Of a stretch of 64,000 nt of DNA, positions 23,739 through 33,929 are shown piece by piece. Within the stretch, counting starts at the first letter, position 1. Every line of letters begins with the position of its first letter. Source of the stretch: Balneicella halophila (GTDB taxonomy: Bacteria > Bacteroidota > Bacteroidia > Bacteroidales > Balneicellaceae). The stretch covers positions 434,001 to 498,000 of the forward strand of contig NZ_QENZ01000003.1 in assembly GCF_003096835.1 (NCBI RefSeq), given 5' to 3'. The notes below the pieces were generated by a model. It made no database searches and was not told the origin of the DNA. It was given only the letters and a program-made list of their open reading frames with translations. The position numbers and the translations under genes were made by a program.

Positions 23739-23963
23739 TTAATTGTCTTTAATTTTTAACCATCTTAAAATGTCATTCAATAAGCACCATTTTGTAAGTG
23801 ATGATTGTATAAGGTTTAATGCCACGAAGAGTGCCAAGGCTAACCAATAGATATGCACAAAATATCCAAGGAGAACACTCAACAGCACGAAAGTTCCTGC
23901 AATAAATCGCACGATGCGTTCGTGTTTCGTTACTTTGTGACAATATGGTTTATTATTTTCCAT
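23739..23963 (-). CDS. small DUF2892 (YgaP-like) membrane protein
   Basis: A 74-residue protein from the ATG at 23963; the frame continues upstream, but the family-like start is MENNKPYCHKVTKHERIVRF. Two hydrophobic segments (about 22-36 and 38-56) are followed by NLIQSSLTKWCLLNDIL, the DUF2892 signature also found next to rhodanese domains in YgaP. Cys residues at the N-terminus and in KWCLL are conserved in the family and often linked to sulfur chemistry. It sits between the PII-like and thioredoxin genes in the efflux operon. Function unknown. Confidence 0.75.
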   Translation of the reverse strand: MENNKPYCHKVTKHERIVRFIAGTFVLLSVLLGYFVHIYWLALALFVALNLIQSSLTKWCLLNDILRWLKIKDN

Positions 23964-23979
23964 TGTTTTAATATTTTGC

Positions 23980-24285
23980 TTAAATGTATTTATCCACAGG
24001 AACAGTGCCAACTTTTATACAAAAGTTTTTGTTTTCCACGGTGCACTGGTTAAATTCAGTTACGATATTTATTAGATTTTCTGCTTGTTTACTTGTTGTA
24101 AAAGCAAAAAACATATGAGAGTCTATACCTTCTTTGGCACCGGGAAACCAGCTGAAAGAAGAACTTTCTGAATGACTGTAGCCGTCCATCTCTGCACCAC
24201 TGTATGAGTCTATTTTAGCCTTTTTCAAGAGTTTTATAATATCTTCTCGAAAAGATGCTACTGCTGTTATGATTACTAATTTCAT
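23980..24285 (-). CDS. small PII-like regulatory protein
   Basis: A 101-residue soluble protein. The beginning MKLVIITAVASFREDIIKLLKKAKI, a central variable loop (residues 30-55, Ser/Tyr/Gly rich), a second strand-helix unit (SHMFFAFTTSKQAENLINIV) and a final IKVGTVPVDKYI strand follow the ferredoxin-like plan of PII/GlnB proteins. Classical PII features such as the T-loop uridylylation Tyr context and the ATP-binding loop are not recognisable, so it is a divergent member. It lies 23 bases after the RND pump gene. PII-like proteins beside transporters often gate them, which is the inferred role. Confidence 0.6.
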   Translation of the reverse strand: MKLVIITAVASFREDIIKLLKKAKIDSYSGAEMDGYSHSESSSFSWFPGAKEGIDSHMFFAFTTSKQAENLINIVTEFNQCTVENKNFCIKVGTVPVDKYI

Positions 24286-24308: not shown

Positions 24309-27300
24309 TTATTTATCTGATTTTTCTCTATCCTCATATTTTTTGCGTTCCATTAGGTAATAAACCAATGGCACGACAAGCAATGTGAGAATGGTAGAAC
24401 CTATCGTTCCACCCATCAGTGAGATTGCCAAACCTTGGAAAATTGGGTCAAAAAGAATGACGAACGCACCGATAACCACCGTACCTGCTGTCAATAGAAT
24501 AGGAGTGGTTCGGATAGCTCCTGCCTCCAATACGGCTTGTTTCAAAGGAATACCTTCTGCCAAACGCAGATTGATAAAGTCAATCAGCAAGACAGAGTTC
24601 CGCACCATAATACCTGCTAGAGCAATCATTCCAATAAAGGATGTGGCAGTAAAGAATGCTCCCAGTATCCAGTGTCCTAAAACAATACCCACTAAGGAAA
24701 GAGGAATGGCAACCATCATCACAAAAGGAACTTTAAAATCTTGGAACCAACCGACTATCAGCATATAAATAATGATGAGTACACCCAAGAATGCAATTCC
24801 CAAATCAAGGAATACCTCGAGGGTTATTTGCCACTCGCCATCCCATTTTACGGTATAGTCATCTTCTAAGGCGGGTTGTTCCATGTAAGTTTCATTGATT
24901 TCGTATCCTGCCGGTAAATCAATAGCTTTTAGTTTATCGGTCATTCCCAGTATTGCATACACAGGACTTTCCAGCTCGCCTGCCATATCGGCTAAAATAT
25001 AAACTACGCGTTTTTGATTTTTTCGATAAATGCTCTTAGGCTTGATATTCTTTTTTACCTCTATAAGGTCGGCAATAGGAACCATATTTCCTTGTTTGCT
25101 TTTTATTTTCAATTGAGCAATATCATTGATAGACGTTTTTTCTTTTTCATCTAATTGAAGAACAATTTCAACTTGATGGTTTGAATTTTCACTGTAAATA
25201 GATGCTACAGCTTTGTTGCTCAATGCCATATTCATCGTATAGACAATTTGTTGAGGAGCGACACCGTAAAGCATCGCTTTTTCTTTGTTTATTTCAAAGT
25301 TAAACTGTTCTTGGTCAGCCTCTACCATCCAGTCGATATCCACGACGTCTTGGGTGTTGTGTAAAATTTGCTGTATGCTGTCTGCAATGGCGATTTGCTG
25401 ATTGTAATCAGGGCCATAAACTTCAGCAACAATTGTAGAAAGCACAGGAGGTCCCGGAGGTACTTCCACTACCTTTACATTAGCACCGTATTTCTTGGCT
25501 ACCGCCTGAATACCCGGGCGATATTTTTTTGCTAAATCATGACTTTGCAGGCTTCGTTTTTTCTTGTCGGTAAGGTTTACTTGAATATCTGCAACATTAC
25601 TGCCATGGCGGATGTCATAGTGGCGTACTAAACCGTTGAAAGTAATCGGGGCTGAAGTACCTATATAGCTTTGGTAATTTACCACCTCATCTTGTTGTCT
25701 GAGGTATTGACCAATTTCTTTCGCTACCACCGCAGTACGTTCCAGTGTTGTGCCCTCCGGCATATCAATAACCACTTGAAATTCGTTCTTATTATCAAAA
25801 GGCAACATTTTTACAGCTACTGTTTTTGTAAAGAACAACGCAACAGACCCTAAGAGCAACAGAAAAGTAACTCCGAGGAAGATGTTTCGCTTCATTTTAT
25901 TTTCAAGAACAGGACGCTCTAATTTTTCATACAATTTATAGATAAATGTTTCTTCTAATTTCTTGGCTTCTTTCTTCTTTTGACCTTTTTTATCCTTTTC
26001 TCTCAAGAAAATAAAACCTAAATAAGGCGTTATCGTCAAGGCAACGAATAGTGAAAGTATCATGGCAATAGATGCACCAATAGGCATTGGAGACATATAA
26101 GGCCCCATCATTCCTGATACAAAAGCCATAGGAAGCACAGAGGCAATTACCGTAAAGGTCGCCAAGATAGTTGGGTTACCAACCTCGTTGATAGCATAAA
26201 GTGCTGCTTGCTTGAAAGGCAGTTTTTTCATTTTAAAATGCCGGTGCATATTCTCCGCAATAATAATAGAGTCATCGACGACAATGCCTGTTACGAACAC
26301 CAATGCAAACAGCGTAATGCGGTTGAGTGTATAGTCAAGCATATAATAGCTCAACAGCGTCAATGCAAAAGTGATGGGAACTGATAGAAACACTACCAAC
26401 CCGCCACGCCAACCCATGGCTAACATAACCACGATGGTTACGGCAATAATCGCTCCGATAAGGTGCATCAATAGTTCAGAGACTTTTTGCGAAGCCGTTT
26501 CTCCGTAGTTACGCGTTACCGATACATGAACATCATCAGGAATAAGTGTTTTGCGTAAATGCTCCACTTTATTCAATATTTTATCGGAAATCTTCATTGC
26601 ATCTGCACCTTTGCGTTTAGCAACAGAGATGGTAACAGCAGGATATTCTGCTTGGTATTCCTTCATTTCATCGCTGGCTACTCCAAATCCCATAGAAACG
26701 TAGTTTTTTGGTAATTCCGGACCATCTTTTATTTCAGCGATTTGTTTTAAATAAACAGCTTGATTCTGATAAACTCCAATGACTAAGTTTTTCACATCAT
26801 CGGAGGTTTCCAAGAAATTGCCTGTTTTGATATTGTATTCTGTATCTCCCTTCTTAAAAGCTCCTGCGACTAATTGATGGTTGTTGGCTTTTAGCATCTC
26901 TGCAACATTCAAAAAGTCTAAATGACTTTCAGCCATTTTTGCTTTGTCAAGAATTACGCTGAGCTCGCGACTGCGCCCGCCAATTATTTTAGTAATAGCT
27001 ACATCATTGACTTTTTCTATTTCAGTAGCCAATTCATTCGCCATTTTCTTTAATTGATAATCATCATAATTAGGGCTCCATAGCGTTAATCCCAGCATGG
27101 GCACATCATCAATGGCACGTGATTTTATTAAAGGCATGGTAACACCTTCCGGCATGGTATCCATGTGCTTATTGATTTCATTGTAGAGTTTTACCAAAGA
27201 GCGTTCTATATCTTCGCCCACGTAAAATTGTACGATAACCATTGCCTGTTCCTCCATAGATGTTGTATATACGTACTCTACACCTTTTATATTGGAGATT

Positions 27301-27524
27301 AATTTTTCAAGAGGTTTTGCTACACGTGATTCTACCTCTTTGGGGCTGGCTCCGGGATAACCGACGAAGATATCTGCCATAGGCACGTCAATTTGTGGCT
27401 CTTCCTCTCGGGGAATCAAAAACGAACTATATACTCCAATGACCATAAATACAATCATCAGCAGTATCGTTAGTTTTGACCCGATAAATAACTTTGCTAT
27501 TTTTCCTGCTAATCCTTCTTTCAT
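24309..27524 (-). CDS. RND family efflux permease
   Basis: A 1071-residue inner-membrane pump with the RND plan of 12 transmembrane helices and two large periplasmic loops. Landmarks are FVGYPGASPKEVESRVAKPLE near the N-terminus, the TM4 proton-relay segment TGIVVDDSIIIAENMHR with two Asp, and the TM10-12 region GIMVRNSVLLIDFINLR. The KVVEVPPGPPVLSTIVAEVYGP stretch (PPGPPVLSTIVAE) is typical of an AcrB-like subgroup distinct from the CusA copper pumps. Substrate is not predictable. It is cotranscribed with TolC and HlyD partners upstream and with PII-like, DUF2892, thioredoxin and DUF302 genes downstream. Confidence 0.93.
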   Translation of the reverse strand: MKEGLAGKIAKLFIGSKLTILLMIVFMVIGVYSSFLIPREEEPQIDVPMADIFVGYPGASPKEVESRVAKPLEKLISNIKGVEYVYTTSMEEQAMVIVQFYVGEDIERSLVKLYNEINKHMDTMPEGVTMPLIKSRAIDDVPMLGLTLWSPNYDDYQLKKMANELATEIEKVNDVAITKIIGGRSRELSVILDKAKMAESHLDFLNVAEMLKANNHQLVAGAFKKGDTEYNIKTGNFLETSDDVKNLVIGVYQNQAVYLKQIAEIKDGPELPKNYVSMGFGVASDEMKEYQAEYPAVTISVAKRKGADAMKISDKILNKVEHLRKTLIPDDVHVSVTRNYGETASQKVSELLMHLIGAIIAVTIVVMLAMGWRGGLVVFLSVPITFALTLLSYYMLDYTLNRITLFALVFVTGIVVDDSIIIAENMHRHFKMKKLPFKQAALYAINEVGNPTILATFTVIASVLPMAFVSGMMGPYMSPMPIGASIAMILSLFVALTITPYLGFIFLREKDKKGQKKKEAKKLEETFIYKLYEKLERPVLENKMKRNIFLGVTFLLLLGSVALFFTKTVAVKMLPFDNKNEFQVVIDMPEGTTLERTAVVAKEIGQYLRQQDEVVNYQSYIGTSAPITFNGLVRHYDIRHGSNVADIQVNLTDKKKRSLQSHDLAKKYRPGIQAVAKKYGANVKVVEVPPGPPVLSTIVAEVYGPDYNQQIAIADSIQQILHNTQDVVDIDWMVEADQEQFNFEINKEKAMLYGVAPQQIVYTMNMALSNKAVASIYSENSNHQVEIVLQLDEKEKTSINDIAQLKIKSKQGNMVPIADLIEVKKNIKPKSIYRKNQKRVVYILADMAGELESPVYAILGMTDKLKAIDLPAGYEINETYMEQPALEDDYTVKWDGEWQITLEVFLDLGIAFLGVLIIIYMLIVGWFQDFKVPFVMMVAIPLSLVGIVLGHWILGAFFTATSFIGMIALAGIMVRNSVLLIDFINLRLAEGIPLKQAVLEAGAIRTTPILLTAGTVVIGAFVILFDPIFQGLAISLMGGTIGSTILTLLVVPLVYYLMERKKYEDREKSDK

Positions 27525-27548: not shown

Positions 27549-28622
27549 TTACTGTATCGGATTTACTTTTACACCGTTGTATAACTTTCCTTCTGCAGAA
27601 ATAATGTAGCTTTCATCTGCTGATAGACCGGAAAGTACTTCTACGTTATCACCTAACTGTTGCCCTAAGCGTAACCATCTTAAAATAGCGGTATTGCTTT
27701 GGCTTACGGTATAGATTCCTGTAAGTTCTCCTTGTTTCACCAAGGCTGATGTAGGAACTGCAATCATTTGAGTAGTTGCTCCACTTTTAATGGGGAAATA
27801 AATTGTTGCATACATTCCTGAACGTAAAGCTTCAGGCTTTTCTTTCAAAGCTACTTTCACAAGATATTGTCCACCGGTATTTTGTGCAGAACTGCTCACT
27901 ACGGATACCTTTCCTTTAGTTTTTTGATTAATTGATTTTATCAAGATTTCGACCTCTTGGTCTTTTTTTACCTTAGCCACTTCACTTTCCGGAATCATCG
28001 CAATAATCTCAAACTTTGAAGGGTTTTCCATTGTAATCAAGGGCATTCCCGGATTGGCTAAATCACCGGCATTTACATTTTTTTGTGTAATAACACCGCT
28101 GAAAGGTGCACGTATATTACTGTAAGAAAATTGAGCGTTTACCCCTTCTTTCATTTGTTGTGCCGCATATAGTCGTGCTTTAGCCATATTATATTGTGCC
28201 GTTACATCATCAAGTTCTTTCTGTGATGCACTTTTGTTTTCAAATAAATTTTTAAAACGCTTATAGTCTTTTTCAGCATTTTGAAATGCGGCTTTTGCTT
28301 CAGAGATACCTGCTTCGGCTTGGGCTTTTTGTGCATTTAGGTCCGCATTATTTATACTTAATAAGAGTTTTCCTTTTGCAACTCTTTCGCCGACTTTTAC
28401 ATATACTTTCTGCACGTGTCCCATGCTTCGTGTACTAAGTGTTGCATACTCTACGGGCATTACTTTTCCACTTACTGATAAAAGGTTATTTTTAGCCTCA
28501 TTGCTTACTTTTTGGATTTTCACTACAACCGCATTATTTTGGTCTGTAGCTTTTTCTTTTTTATCTGAACAGCTTGTGATAAATAGTCCCAGAAAACTGA
28601 TGATTAAAATAAGATGCTTCAT
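27549..28622 (-). CDS. RND efflux periplasmic adaptor lipoprotein (HlyD/MFP family)
   Basis: The membrane-fusion partner of the RND pump. Starting at ATG 28622 (MKHLILIISFLGLFITSC) it has 357 residues and a lipobox ending in Cys18, so it is anchored in the inner membrane facing the periplasm. A nine-codon-longer start at 28649 exists but would push the signal peptide inward. The barrel-sandwich motif GHVQKVYVKVGERVAKGKLL, a helical hairpin (about 90-150), FSGVITQKNVNAGDLANPG and a beta-barrel follow. It lies between tolC and the pump gene. Confidence 0.92.
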   Translation of the reverse strand: MKHLILIISFLGLFITSCSDKKEKATDQNNAVVVKIQKVSNEAKNNLLSVSGKVMPVEYATLSTRSMGHVQKVYVKVGERVAKGKLLLSINNADLNAQKAQAEAGISEAKAAFQNAEKDYKRFKNLFENKSASQKELDDVTAQYNMAKARLYAAQQMKEGVNAQFSYSNIRAPFSGVITQKNVNAGDLANPGMPLITMENPSKFEIIAMIPESEVAKVKKDQEVEILIKSINQKTKGKVSVVSSSAQNTGGQYLVKVALKEKPEALRSGMYATIYFPIKSGATTQMIAVPTSALVKQGELTGIYTVSQSNTAILRWLRLGQQLGDNVEVLSGLSADESYIISAEGKLYNGVKVNPIQ

Positions 28623-28650
28623 ATTATTTAGATTAAATGTTTTTTTCAAT

Positions 28651-29970
28651 TTATTTCGTTGAGGTTAAAAATTCGATGTAATACACAGCTACTTTTAGCT
28701 GAAATAATTCTTGTAAATAGTTGAGGTGTTTTTCTTCAACTGCACTATCGTCTTTGAGTAGGTCTGTGGTTTTCTCCAGACCTTCTTCAAACCTGTTTTT
28801 ACGGATTCTATAACTTTCTTTTGCTTGATTCAATGCTTTTTCAGCTAATGCAATCTTTGCCAATGCGTTTTCAACATCACGATGAGCTTTGTTTAGTTCA
28901 GCTTGACTTTTCGTAAGGTAATCCTCATAAGCAACCTCTGCTTTTTCTAAGGCAACCTTGTTTTTTTGTATATCTTTAATGTTTTGTGTTCCGTTGAAAA
29001 GATTCCAAGATAATCGCATACCTACCATGTAGTTGTCTGCATCACCTTGAAACAATTTGTGATTGTTGATTTCATATTGTCCAAAAGCATTTACACGAGG
29101 TGAAAATTTTGAGCGACTTGCTTTTAGCATATTCTTCTGTGCATCAATACCTGCTCGATAAGCCAGCAAATCATCTCTTTCTGTTTCCAAATTACTTTGA
29201 GGAAGTAAACCTACAGTAGAAGGAATTTCTTTAATTTCAGTCGTCGGCTTTAAGGTTTCTTTCGCATCTTGTCCCATGATATAATACAGCTGGTCAGAGA
29301 GATTTTGAATATTGATTTTATTATTCAATATTTTATTTTCCATATCCGTTAAGCGTACGTTGACTTCCAATTCGTCAGAGGGTTTGGTATAGCCTTGCTT
29401 ACTTAGGTTTTCTACCAAATTTACATTTGCTTCTACCGTTTTTTTGGCTTTCTCCAATACATCATTTGCCGCATAGAGTAGTTGTAATTGAGCAAAAAGT
29501 TGCTTCACCTGAAAAGTTAAATACTCTTTGCCGTATGCCAGTTGATGCTTTGATGCTAAGGCTTTTGCTCTTGCTGCACTTCGCATGTAAATACCATCCA
29601 AATTAAAGATAGGTTGCTCGACTTTTACCAAAGCATTATAAGAGTTCATCCCGTCAGGATTGTTCAGTAAATCCGGAGCAAAGTCTGCTTGCTGAATAAT
29701 CTTTTGCTTTAATTTTGTCCCGAATACGTTAAGCGGGTCGTTGGTTCGACCAAAAGAATAACTTGCATTTACGCGGGGAAGAAATACAGCATTACTCTTC
29801 TCTGCATCTAACTGTTCAATATCGGCTTGCAAAGCTTGTTGTTGCAGTCCCATATTGTTTGCCAATGCTTTACTCAACAATTCCTCTAAGCTGATGGTTT
29901 GTTGTGCTTGACTGAGCGACAAAAAGCCACAAAGGAGGATTAGGCTAATAAAAAGTCTTTTTGAAAACAT
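28651..29970 (-). CDS. TolC family outer-membrane efflux protein
   Basis: The outer-membrane channel of the tripartite pump. The 439-residue protein has a signal peptide (cut near SQAQ-QTISL) and the TolC/OEP repeat structure of long amphipathic helices, with the typical N-terminal ISLEELLSKALANNMGLQQQ and repeated heptads in the second half (ALAKIALAEKALNQAKESYRIRKNRFEEG region). It is the first gene of the efflux operon. Its promoter region has a TAnnTTTG box and a perfect palindrome resembling a Crp/Fnr site. Confidence 0.92.
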   Translation of the reverse strand: MFSKRLFISLILLCGFLSLSQAQQTISLEELLSKALANNMGLQQQALQADIEQLDAEKSNAVFLPRVNASYSFGRTNDPLNVFGTKLKQKIIQQADFAPDLLNNPDGMNSYNALVKVEQPIFNLDGIYMRSAARAKALASKHQLAYGKEYLTFQVKQLFAQLQLLYAANDVLEKAKKTVEANVNLVENLSKQGYTKPSDELEVNVRLTDMENKILNNKINIQNLSDQLYYIMGQDAKETLKPTTEIKEIPSTVGLLPQSNLETERDDLLAYRAGIDAQKNMLKASRSKFSPRVNAFGQYEINNHKLFQGDADNYMVGMRLSWNLFNGTQNIKDIQKNKVALEKAEVAYEDYLTKSQAELNKAHRDVENALAKIALAEKALNQAKESYRIRKNRFEEGLEKTTDLLKDDSAVEEKHLNYLQELFQLKVAVYYIEFLTSTK

Positions 29971-29999
29971 ACTTTCATCTTTTATTTAGGATTCCAAGA

Positions 30000-30044
30000 C
30001 AAAAGTAGTTGTCGGCAAAACCACTTACAGTGACTAAAGTCACA
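30000..30044 (-). promoter_or_regulatory. efflux operon promoter with Crp/Fnr-type operator
   Basis: On the minus strand the sequence contains TGTGACTTTAGTCACT (30029-30044), a perfect 6-2-6 palindrome GTGACT-TT-AGTCAC that fits TGTGA-N6-TCACA with one mismatch. Its centre is about 30 bases upstream of a TACTTTTG -7 box (30000-30007), so near -40 from the expected start. There is no good -33 TTTG; the operator covers that place. This is the layout of a class II activated promoter. The adjacent Crp/Fnr gene is the obvious candidate regulator. Confidence 0.7.
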
Positions 30045-30054
30045 TAACGAAAAA

Positions 30055-30681
30055 TTAAAGCATTTTAATAGAATTTCGACCTAACTGAACCAGGCCTTTG
30101 CTTTCTAAAGCTTTGAGTAATCGTGAAATAACTTCTCGGGAAGTGTTGAGATCTCGGGCTATCTCGTGATGTGTTATTTGAATTTGAGAATCATTTGACA
30201 TTTCCTCCTTCTTTTTCAGGTAAGAAAGCAATCGTTCATCAACTTTTTGGAATGCAATACTATCAAGAGCTTCCAATAGTTGATTGAATTTTTCTTTGAA
30301 GGAAAGCATCACGAATTCTTTCCAACTTTTGTATTTCGAAGACCAGCTGTTTACATTTAATATACTTACAAGAATAACTTCTGTTTCTTCTTCTGCAATG
30401 GCATTTATTTGGCTTTTTTTGTTGGTATAGCAACACTGCAGGGTGTCGGCACAAGTATCTCCTTGTTTTAGATAATAGAGAAAGACTTCCTTGCCGTCCT
30501 CATTGATACGTGAAACTCTAATATTTCCGGATAGTACTAAAGGAGCAAAAGTAATATAGTCCCCAACGTTTATAATATTATCACCTTCCGAAAAAACACG
30601 ATATATTCCTTCTTTAGCAATTTCATCAAGTAATGCTATTTCTGTGATTCCGGGTAATGCTTTCCGAATTTTTGTCTTCAT
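30055..30681 (-). CDS. Crp/Fnr family transcription regulator with cysteine-bearing sensor domain
   Basis: A 208-residue regulator. Residues about 20-120 form the cyclic-nucleotide-binding-like beta roll, and 150-205 the winged helix (HHEIARDLNTSREVISRLLKALESKG recognition region). The phosphate-binding cassette of true cAMP receptors is not preserved: where Gly-Glu and Arg are expected the protein has GDTCADTLQCCYTN, with Cys77, Cys83 and Cys84. This points to thiol/redox or another ligand rather than cAMP, which is inference. No FNR-type N-terminal Cys cluster is present. It lies 84 bases upstream of tolC, with a Crp-type palindrome between, and 38 bases after the Feo operon. Confidence 0.88.
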   Translation of the reverse strand: MKTKIRKALPGITEIALLDEIAKEGIYRVFSEGDNIINVGDYITFAPLVLSGNIRVSRINEDGKEVFLYYLKQGDTCADTLQCCYTNKKSQINAIAEEETEVILVSILNVNSWSSKYKSWKEFVMLSFKEKFNQLLEALDSIAFQKVDERLLSYLKKKEEMSNDSQIQITHHEIARDLNTSREVISRLLKALESKGLVQLGRNSIKML

Positions 30682-30719
30682 TTTCAGTAATAAATATATT
30701 CACAATATTACAAAAAAAA

Positions 30720-32135
30720 TCACAGTCTCCAGAAAAAAGCGACTAAGAAACATACCACAATACCCATGATGATAGGAAGAATTGCTGCTACAGTGGTCCA
30801 TTTTACACTATTTGTTTCTTTATATATGGTATATATCGTTGTACTGCAAGGGTTATGAAGCAAACTAAATAGCATTAAGTTGACTGCAGTGAGTAGTGTC
30901 CATCCTCCTGCCTCTAATATCGTTGAAATTTGAGCTTCAGAACCTTCAAACATAACTCCTGCACCTTCACCCATATTTAAATCTTTTGTGACTAGCACTG
31001 TGAGCATTAAGATAGTAGGTATTACAATTTCATTGGCAGGAATCGCTAAAATATAAGCAAGAAGAATCACACCGTTTAGTCCGATAGCCACTCCAAACGG
31101 ATCCAGCCAATCAATAGTCCAAAATGCTAGACTTTCACCGCCTACGTTTATATTTGAAATGAGCCAAATAGCTGCTCCTGCTGGTGCCGCAAACATTACC
31201 GCTCTCCACAAAACGATAAGCGTACGGTCTATCAATGACGTATATAAAGTTTTCCAAAACTGTGGCGGTCGGTAGGGAGGAAGTTCTAGGGTAAATGAAG
31301 ATACTTCACCCTTTAGCATTACTCTAGAGAGAAACCAATTGGTTCCGAACATAAAAGCAATACCAATAAGTGCTATCAGGATAACCGAACCCGTAGCAAC
31401 AAAACTTGTAAATTCATTAGGAACAACCGCTCCTAGAAAGATAGTGGCGAGTAATATCTGGGTAGGCCATCGTCCGTTACATAGCGAAAAGTTATTCGTA
31501 ATTATAGCTATTAAGCGCTCACGCGGGCTATCAATTATACGTGTTGCCACAACACCCGCAGCATTACATCCAAATCCCATAGTCATGGTTAAAGCTTGCT
31601 TTCCATGTGCACCGGTTTTTTGGAATATTTTATCGAGATTAAATGCGACTCTAGGCAGATAACCAAAATCCTCTAACAGTGTAAATAATGGAAAAAATAT
31701 GGCCATCGGGGGCAGCATCACAGCAATCACCCAGGCTACAGCCAAATAAACACCATCTACAAGAAATCCACTCAACCACCATGGAAAGTTTAGTGCATTA
31801 GCTCCATCTTTCAGCAGCGGGTAGAGCCAGCCCATGAGAAGATCCGAAAGCATTTGCGAAGGGTAGTTGGCTCCTATAATAGTAATCCATAAAACTACAG
31901 CTAATATCAGAAGCATAATAGGGAATCCCCATTTTTTGCTTGTAACTATTTGGTCAAGTTTCTGTTCAAAATTGAAAACACTTTCTTTACCTTTTTGCTG
32001 TACCGTTTTTCTAGTTATGGCAGCTGCATCTGTATAAATACTTTCTGTCAGGTAATCATGATAGTTATCACCAAGTTCCCAGCGTAGCTTGTCAGCTTTG
32101 TTCAGGATGTTATCTATATTTGTCTGTTTGCTCAT
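30720..32135 (-). CDS. feoB: FeoB-type iron transporter, permease half
   Basis: A 471-residue membrane protein that corresponds to the C-terminal transport domain of FeoB without a GTPase domain. A soluble helical leader (residues 1-55) is followed by about 9-10 transmembrane segments. The two gate motifs are visible: [23 protein letters not shown] and [14 protein letters not shown] (seen as GFGCNAAG and SLCNGRWP), plus the late [14 protein letters not shown] segment. The gene starts inside the stop of the GTPase gene (ATGA), so the two halves are translationally coupled. FeoB members can carry Fe2+ or Mn2+; the metal is not decided by sequence. Confidence 0.9.
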
Positions 32136-32914
32136 TTCTTTATCTCCAAATCTCCTAAAGTTCCTTGTTTTACTGCGTCAATAATACTTCTATCTCCTTC
32201 AAGTAGACGTAGAGCTATCCATCGGCTATTAGGCAACTGTGGATATTGTTCCTCAATTTCTTTACTTAATTCTGCCACTGCTGTTTCAATTTTTGGTGGG
32301 ATACTGCTAATTTTATGAGGTTTTGTATTTATGTTCCCAGTAGCCATATCATCAATCGTTTTTAATAACAGTGGCAAGCCCTTTCCATAGCGTGCACTTG
32401 TTGGCACTACTGGAATTCCTAATTCTCTTGCCAAAGAACGCTCATCTACCTTAATTCCATGTCTTTCAGCTTCATCAATTAGATTAAGACAGAGAATAGT
32501 GTTAGGTGTTATTTCTAATATTTGTAGGATAAGATTTAGGTTACGTTCTAACCTTGCAGAATCTGCAACAACAACGGTAACATTGGGCTTTCCAAATAGG
32601 ATGAAATTGCGAGCAATCTCTTCATCTTCCGATGTGGAAAGCAACGAATAGGTTCCTGGTAAATCTACCAATTTAAATTTTTTGTCATTGTAGCTGAAAG
32701 CTCCTTCAGCACGCACTACCGTTTTGCCCGGCCAGTTTCCTGTGTGCTGTCGTAGTCCTGTGAGTGCATTAAACACTGTGCTTTTCCCAGTATTTGGATT
32801 TCCTGCCAAAGCTACTACATAGTCACTTTTAGTAGCATCAACACCTAATTTTTTCAGTGCGGCATGGTTATAAAGATCACAATTCTCACAAGCAGCATTC
32901 TTTTTATCACTCAT
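32132..32914 (-). CDS. feoB: FeoB-type iron transporter, GTPase half
   Basis: A 260-residue protein equal to the cytosolic G domain plus the guanine-dissociation-inhibitor-like helical part of FeoB. Motifs are G1 [10 protein letters not shown]3 DLPGTYS, G4 NLID and G5-like TSARYGKG. An N-terminal extension carries CENC, a possible metal or redox site not seen in classic FeoB. The start overlaps the DtxR-FeoA gene by 8 bases and follows a purine-rich AAGGAGGG, a strong Shine-Dalgarno sequence that is unusual in this phylum. It overlaps the permease gene by 4 bases. Confidence 0.92.
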
Positions 32915-33929
32915 CGTTTCCCTCCTTTTGAATTAGAATATATTGAGCTTGATCTTCTCGTAAAGCTATAAGTGTTTCTCTTACTTGGTAGGCAATAGGG
33001 TCACCCAAAGGACTGATATTAGAAATTTTAATCTCTGTGCCATTAACGAAGCCTAAGTCTAGCAATCTACGTCTATTCTCACCTCTGCATTCTCTTGAAA
33101 TACCTTTAACAACTGCTTTTTCTTTCTTTTTTAATTGTGAAAGTCTGCTGATATTCTCAGTGATTTCTTCTTTTTCTAAAGGGATAATAGTAAGGGCATC
33201 GGCTACTATTGGTTGTAAATCATGCAATCTGCCTTCTGAAGAAAAACGAACCATTTCCGGAGTTATTTTCAAAATTTTTACTTGAGAACCAATGTGTATA
33301 TTCTCAGCTAAGATTTGCTGATAAATGGATTCTGGTTCATCTTGAATGTGTACAATTCTGCCAATGGTTCCTTCCGGGAAAGATGCTAAAACTTTTCCTG
33401 AGATTTCAGGCATTTCTCCTTCTCCATAGGGAATAGGATCTCCGTGAGGATCGAAAAGTGGTCTTCTTAATTCTTTTGATAGTTCCTCAAGATGCTCGTC
33501 AGTGAGTCTATGTTCTGCTTTTTCAGCTAATTTATGCCAATCTTTTTTATCATATCCTGTCTTTTCAGCAAGAAACTGCTCCCAAAGTCTATGAGCGCGT
33601 ACAATTCGCAGTGCATAGGTTTCTCCTTTAGGACTCAAACGGACTTTATTTTCTAGTACTTGAACCAAGTCCTTTTTTTCCATTTCACTCAATATCTTAA
33701 GTGTTTGTTGTTCTCTAAATGGAAGCTTTTTTACAAGCGATTTAATATTTGGTGTTATTTTTTCTAGTTGAGACTGGTATAGTGTTTTTAGGATATCCTC
33801 CAAAATAATTCTATCTCGCGATACCTTGGTTTCCTTAAGTCGATACCACCATCCATCCTGTGGTTTGAAGAACAGAATGAGCAAGATTATAGCTATTATG
33901 CCAAATATAATATTGAAAATAAGAGTCAT
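32907..33929 (-). CDS. membrane-anchored DtxR-type regulator fused to FeoA domains
   Basis: A 340-residue fusion. Residues 3-22 form a transmembrane helix. Residues about 35-180 resemble a DtxR/MntR metalloregulator: a winged-helix part ([24 protein letters not shown]), then [17 protein letters not shown] and PHGDPIP, which hold the His and Glu metal ligands. Residues about 190-255 and 265-338 each look like an SH3-type FeoA domain (the second with [30 protein letters not shown], here [12 protein letters not shown]). It is the first gene of the Feo operon and overlaps the GTPase gene. A metal sensor bound to the membrane next to FeoB could gate transport, regulate genes, or both. Confidence 0.82.

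Follow-up and report, generated by a model that had tools for sequence, protein, structure and literature searches.

At the class II promoters of Escherichia coli CRP, the activator occupies a position centred at -41.5. FisR, SqrR/BigR and CstR, with NtrC-, ArsR- and CsoR-type folds, respond to persulfide and have genes for persulfide dioxygenase, rhodanese or TauE/SafE-type proteins under their control. In Bacteroides thetaiotaomicron, BT4338/Cur is an activator whose palindrome lies upstream of the putative -7 sequence of a Bacteroidota promoter, an arrangement like the one described here; in the available part of the source its consensus is wwwTATGTTnTAnAACATAwww and its signal carbon limitation, and both differ from what we report for the present operator (PMC6989115). 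HcpR and HcpR2 also belong to the Crp/Fnr family and have hcp as target, according to the accessible sections of PMC1274295. The literature searched, most subscription journals lying outside it, yielded no description of a Crp/Fnr sulfur regulon in Bacteroidota, nor of an RND pump within a sulfur-stress regulon; the parts available of PMC8510549 and PMC12040651, which were among the texts searched, held no description of the regulon either.

In this study, we explored a palindrome between a crp-like gene and a tolC-like gene in a 64-kb stretch of the Balneicella halophila genome, the whole of which is hereafter called the window. Our findings support a model, to which we assign a probability of roughly 75%, where the Crp/Fnr regulator encoded immediately upstream uses the palindrome as its operator in class II activation of tolC-MFP-RND-p101-ygaP, with sulfane sulfur or thiol stress as the presumed signal. 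Sequence comparison gives good support to the operator, the promoter geometry and the regulator assignment; from the geometry we infer activation by the regulator, and we likewise infer that the regulator binds, that the genes share one transcript, that the signal is sulfur and what the pump carries.

The efflux locus and its predicted promoter

On the minus strand, the gene order is a DtxR/FeoA fusion, FeoB (two genes), crp, tolC, adaptor, RND permease, p101 and a YgaP-like gene. The features are as follows.

30055..30681, minus strand: Crp/Fnr-family regulator of 208 aa, with C77/C83/C84 and recognition helix SREVISR (domain matches, alignment, model)
30029..30044, minus strand: predicted Crp/Fnr operator TGTGACTTTAGTCACT (sequence; spacing constant in relatives)
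30000..30007, minus strand: -7 box TACTTTTG, TAnnTTTG, starting after 21 nt beyond the operator (sequence)
28651..29970, minus strand: TolC-family outer membrane efflux protein, whose gene opens the presumed operon (domain search)
27549..28649, minus strand: RND periplasmic adaptor (MFP), above the NCBIfam RND_mfp cut-off (profile search)
24309..27524, minus strand: RND permease (ACR_tran) (domain search)
23980..24285, minus strand: 101-aa protein (p101) with no Pfam match (Pfam search; gene order of relatives)
23739..24011, minus strand: YgaP-like transmembrane protein (DUF2892), listed from TTG (domain search)

The adaptor is also listed from a TTG, but its translation may really begin with the ATG at 28622. 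FeoB is split into two overlapping genes, for the GTPase (32132-32914) and the permease (30720-32135), and is preceded by the DtxR/FeoA fusion (32907-33929).

Operator and box both fall inside the 84-nt gap between the end of crp (30055) and the start of tolC (29970), on the same strand, the operator beginning 11 nt past the crp stop. The sequence-only reading had described a perfect palindrome; this stands for 14 nt, GTGACT-TT-AGTCAC at 30030-30043 (minus strand), but not for the 16-mer TGTGACTTTAGTCACT, whose outermost T...T pair is non-complementary and which is one base off TGTGA-N6-TCACA. TAnnTTTG is the type of -7 box to which we take TACTTTTG to belong. The gap separating it from the operator is exactly 21 nt, and the distance from operator centre to the first T of TAnnTTTG is 29 nt, in accordance with the earlier estimate of about 30 bases. 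With that T counted by convention as -12, the predicted position becomes -41.5, close to the -40 first proposed, and inspection of the sequence revealed no TTG at the -33 place of the tolC promoter, where the sequence-only reading had the palindrome replace the -33 element. The layout resembles E. coli class II promoters in its TGTGA-N6-TCAC palindrome, its R-E-x3-R helix and a centre 29 nt before the box that would start at -12, yet it carries TAnnTTTG, not TATAAT, its regulator is not a CRP orthologue, and there is one composite site in this genome, not a global regulon.

Symmetry alone proves nothing, since about 16 perfect pairs of 6-bp arms with a fixed 2-nt gap are expected per 64 kb (64000/4^6, by arithmetic). 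In the window, TGTGACTTTAGTCACT is the sole match at three or fewer mismatches against 0.80 expected, and 55 of 100 shuffles held at least one such match; a match that loose is unremarkable. The genome search suggested by the sequence-only reading was run with the 14-mer GTGACTNNAGTCAC and gave one exact and one one-mismatch place in 2.09 Mb, but the reversed-pattern control was equally frequent (2 and 2 per strand), which puts the count at chance level. A looser half-site pattern gave 134/133 matches versus 271/280 in the reversed control, and with fewer matches than the control a genome-wide regulon of loose sites finds no support in this genome. Symmetry being common and the 14-mer count being at control level, the palindrome's form was discarded as a measure of significance and position and conservation were tested instead; it is on these, as judged from sequence comparison, that its significance rests. 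The 2.09-Mb genome holds a single copy of the composite formed by site and TAnnTTTG, at the efflux promoter.

The palindrome might also act in RNA, as a hairpin ending or trimming the crp transcript, and a 5-bp hairpin is indeed predicted (-5.5 kcal/mol, z -2.29; 5 of 200 shuffles fold equally well). Against this, there is no terminator-like match in 29900-30800 and no T-run after the palindrome, many sites of relatives (e.g. TGTAACAAAAGTAGCT) have no perfect stem, and the spacing to TAnnTTTG is constant, a feature that function as RNA would not require. We consider such a role very improbable and rejected it in favour of the operator.

Position and conservation of the site

Relatives of the regulator were collected (464 candidates confirmed, best 80 loci kept), and the resulting alignment holds 99 regulators in 91 loci, namely the best 80 loci with 8 paralogues, to which 10 loci from the order and that of the window were added; a few of the 91 represent the same contig twice (e.g. 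L004 and L086). We searched these loci for GTNAC-N4-GTNAC followed by TAnnTTTG, allowing one mismatch overall and spacings of 10-32. A spacing of 21 nt accounts for 70 of the 102 matches, any other for 0-6 each, and all 70 sites at 21 nt lie on the strand of the regulator. Because the 91 loci had been picked for the regulator, the search was repeated class-wide, with exact matches and spacings of 11-31, in 90 genomes chosen independently of it: 38 of 61 matches fall at 21 nt and 13 at 22, with 0-2 at each of the others. The reversed control has about 61 matches in total (table summed), equal to the real total, and therefore the signal consists of the pile-up at 21 and 22 only. At fixed spacing, the composite was found in 109 of 395 class genomes, against 9 of 395 for the reversed control (read off the table). 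The 29 nt from operator centre to the T of TAnnTTTG, which would correspond to the roughly -41.5 of a class II Crp-dependent promoter, is a conserved distance.

Many sites lie close to the end of the regulator gene: 34 of the 67 assigned to Glu or Val regulators (see below) start -8 to +27 nt from its end, and in 22 of the 67 assigned sites its stop codon (TAA/TGA) is embedded in the half-site TGT(A/G)AC. For 47 of the 99 aligned regulators, no qualifying site was found within 3.5 kb. At -34 to -32, immediately past the operator core, relatives share an extra conserved TGT (T in 40, G in 48 and T in 47 of 66); the window has CTGTAAG there.

A close tolC (E <= 1e-60) is present in 9 of the 198 genomes of the order, own included. 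The arrangement crp-site-tolC-MFP-RND-p101 is kept in three of the other genomes, G022 and G136 from one family and G073 from another; in G092, from a third family, crp is divergent and the palindrome is altered to TGGAACAATTGTTCCT, with spacing unchanged. Four of the eight other genomes with a close tolC (L117, L118, L120, L121) have no site in the 1.5-kb flank, nor, by eye, a crp ORF there. Relatives of p101 follow the RND gene in G022, G136, G073 and G092, four other genomes of three families, and p101 looks like a regular partner of the TolC-RND pump.

The regulator and its recognition helix

The neighbouring gene does encode a Crp/Fnr protein, as first read: matches above cut-off to PF00027 (37.4 bits) and PF13545 (38.4 bits), a cNMP_binding-like domain and, after it, a Crp-type HTH, place it in the superfamily. 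Its AlphaFold2 model (pLDDT 90.6, pTM 0.65) has the Crp folds 4ev0 and 3dv8 as top structure matches. It is not a CRP orthologue, scoring 54.9 bits against the cut-off of 266 of NCBIfam PRK11753 (cAMP receptor equivalog). The 4Fe-4S regulator FNR has an N-terminal cysteine cluster plus one further Cys; C77, C83 and C84 being the only cysteines here, the protein does not have the FNR pattern. C77, R182 and R187 are identical in 99 of 99 aligned regulators. A sensor formed by C77 with C83 or C84 finds no support for the family as a whole, because a cysteine occupies position 83 in just 41 and position 84 in just 42 of the 99.

The genome encodes three Crp/Fnr proteins, a fourth HTH match being below cut-off. 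Of the other two, one lies beside a Dps-like gene and one, HcpR-like, beside an Hcp-like gene; these neighbours were assigned by eye, the latter also from likeness to the Prismane matches of the class-wide loci. The existence of these proteins, together with the presence of the composite before hcp in two of 29 class-wide loci, which indicates a geometry common to other regulators, would allow the site to be an operator for one of them. Their recognition helices, however, are MTPSNAIR and ITRPALTK, so that R-E-x3-R is found only in the regulator next to tolC, and sites recur beside genes of this tolC-adjacent subfamily. The hcp-like promoter of this genome, moreover, has a different palindrome, TGTAATCCAAATTACA, 21 nt before CATCTTTG (L153:1885-1929, between the HcpR-like and hcp-like genes), with the same spacing as TGTGACTTTAGTCACT but another half-site. 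Assignment to either of the other proteins is therefore improbable, and the 30055-30681 protein is the likely binder of TGTGACTTTAGTCACT. Conserved spacing, retention of crp-site-tolC in three other genomes and this exclusive helix lend comparative backing to the regulator-operator-operon hypothesis from which we started.

Helix residue 183 and the half-site appear to vary together. A GTGAC half is present in 16 of 18 sites of Glu183 regulators versus 6 of 49 of Val183 regulators (counted by regulator, 16/17 versus 5/34), two sites of a Thr regulator being excluded from the comparison. Fisher's test gives p = 8e-9 over 67 sites and 2e-7 over 51 unique 16-mers, values inflated by relatedness, the tree having only two switches; an independent-pairs test cannot reach significance with two, and the association was not taken as significant. 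With so few switches, the independent evidence for the rule is small. In the accessible part of the HcpR study, the change of E181 to Pro in HcpR2 accompanies GTAAC, a trend in the same direction as ours, and the HcpR2 motif GTAACnnnnGTTAC resembles the Val-type sites (PMC1274295). HcpR and HcpR2 differ from the present system in their hcp target as given there, and B. halophila has a separate HcpR-like protein and that other palindrome before its hcp-like gene. Overall, a testable regulator-operator rule for Bacteroidota can be proposed, TGTRAC-N4-GTNAC, 21 nt, TAnnTTTG, in which the identity of one helix residue, Glu or Val, correlates with whether the half-site has G or A.

Sulfur genes and the presumed signal

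Which genes follow these sites in relatives? The 70 sites yielded 66 first downstream ORFs, ten of which were hand-picked for a domain scan: two combine MBL with rhodanese, two are Pyr_redox with rhodanese, and TauE/SafE, rhodanese, thioredoxin, sulfate permease, YgaP-like and DUF302 occur once each. MBL plus rhodanese is the domain make-up of persulfide dioxygenases. The class-wide loci (29, or 30 returned minus our own), not picked by regulator, gave first ORFs with MBL+rhodanese (6), rhodanese (4), TauE (3), Pyr_redox_2 (3), YgaP-like (2) and Prismane, that is Hcp (2), one each of Cons_hypoth698, AhpC-TSA, HMA, DUF302 and DUF2492, and four with no family match. A relative of the regulator lies within the fetched stretch in 13 of these 29, and the regulator-picked and class-wide sets overlap, with at least L125/L067 and L127/L103 sharing a site. 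FisR, SqrR/BigR and CstR have targets similar to those of relatives' sites; the regulator here has the Crp/Fnr fold instead.

Since genes of the persulfide-dioxygenase-like, rhodanese, TauE/SafE, CoA-disulfide-reductase-like and YgaP-like kinds lie downstream of relatives' sites, and since C77 is invariant, sulfane sulfur or a related thiol stress is the most likely signal, a proposal that goes beyond the sequence-only reading. A dimer of the 30055-30681 protein would bind the palindrome centred at about -41.5 and recruit RNA polymerase in the manner of E. coli CRP at class II promoters, standing in for the -33 element that a Bacteroidota-type promoter would have. Sulfane sulfur or related thiol stress would be sensed through the invariant Cys77, and tolC-MFP-RND-p101-ygaP would be switched on as one transcript. 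The pump might then export toxic sulfur species or a product of sulfur or thiol stress, which is the least certain step.

The sulfane-sulfur genes are seen as a regulon in relatives; in this genome only the YgaP-like gene, within the operon, represents them. It is conceivable that the adjacent protein binds the site but responds to another cue, such as redox, NO, haem or iron, and that divergent regulons account for the sulfur genes seen in relatives. Haem ligation, or reaction with other electrophiles, would be open to a single invariant Cys, crp follows the feoA/feoB genes, the composite occurs in this genome nowhere but at the efflux operon, and for the genome's own persulfide-dioxygenase-like gene (C5:86173-87453, 32% identity) no comparable site was found. 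Yet the targets of relatives are repeatedly sulfane-sulfur genes, the YgaP-like family (DUF2892) in the window's operon is itself a repeated first target, and G073 carries, 0.76 kb beyond p101 and in the same orientation, a CoA-disulfide-reductase-like gene that includes a rhodanese domain. We regard another signal as rather unlikely and retain sulfane sulfur.

More broadly, these results point to a possible sulfur-stress regulon in Bacteroidota with an RND pump as member. It is tentatively hypothesized, with more doubt than confidence, that in a Bacteroidota-wide Crp/Fnr subfamily one invariant Cys of the cNMP-like domain senses sulfane sulfur and activates persulfide-detoxification genes from -41.5, and that here, as in two further families of this order, the subfamily drives a TolC-RND pump exporting reactive sulfur; if true, TolC-RND would be an export route for such species. 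Beside two of the close tolC relatives that stand without crp or site nearby, thioredoxin-like ORFs were noted by eye in L118 (2919-3308) and L121 (1-983), the latter with a rhodanese-like ORF as well, neighbours that, judged by eye, again suggest a link to sulfur.
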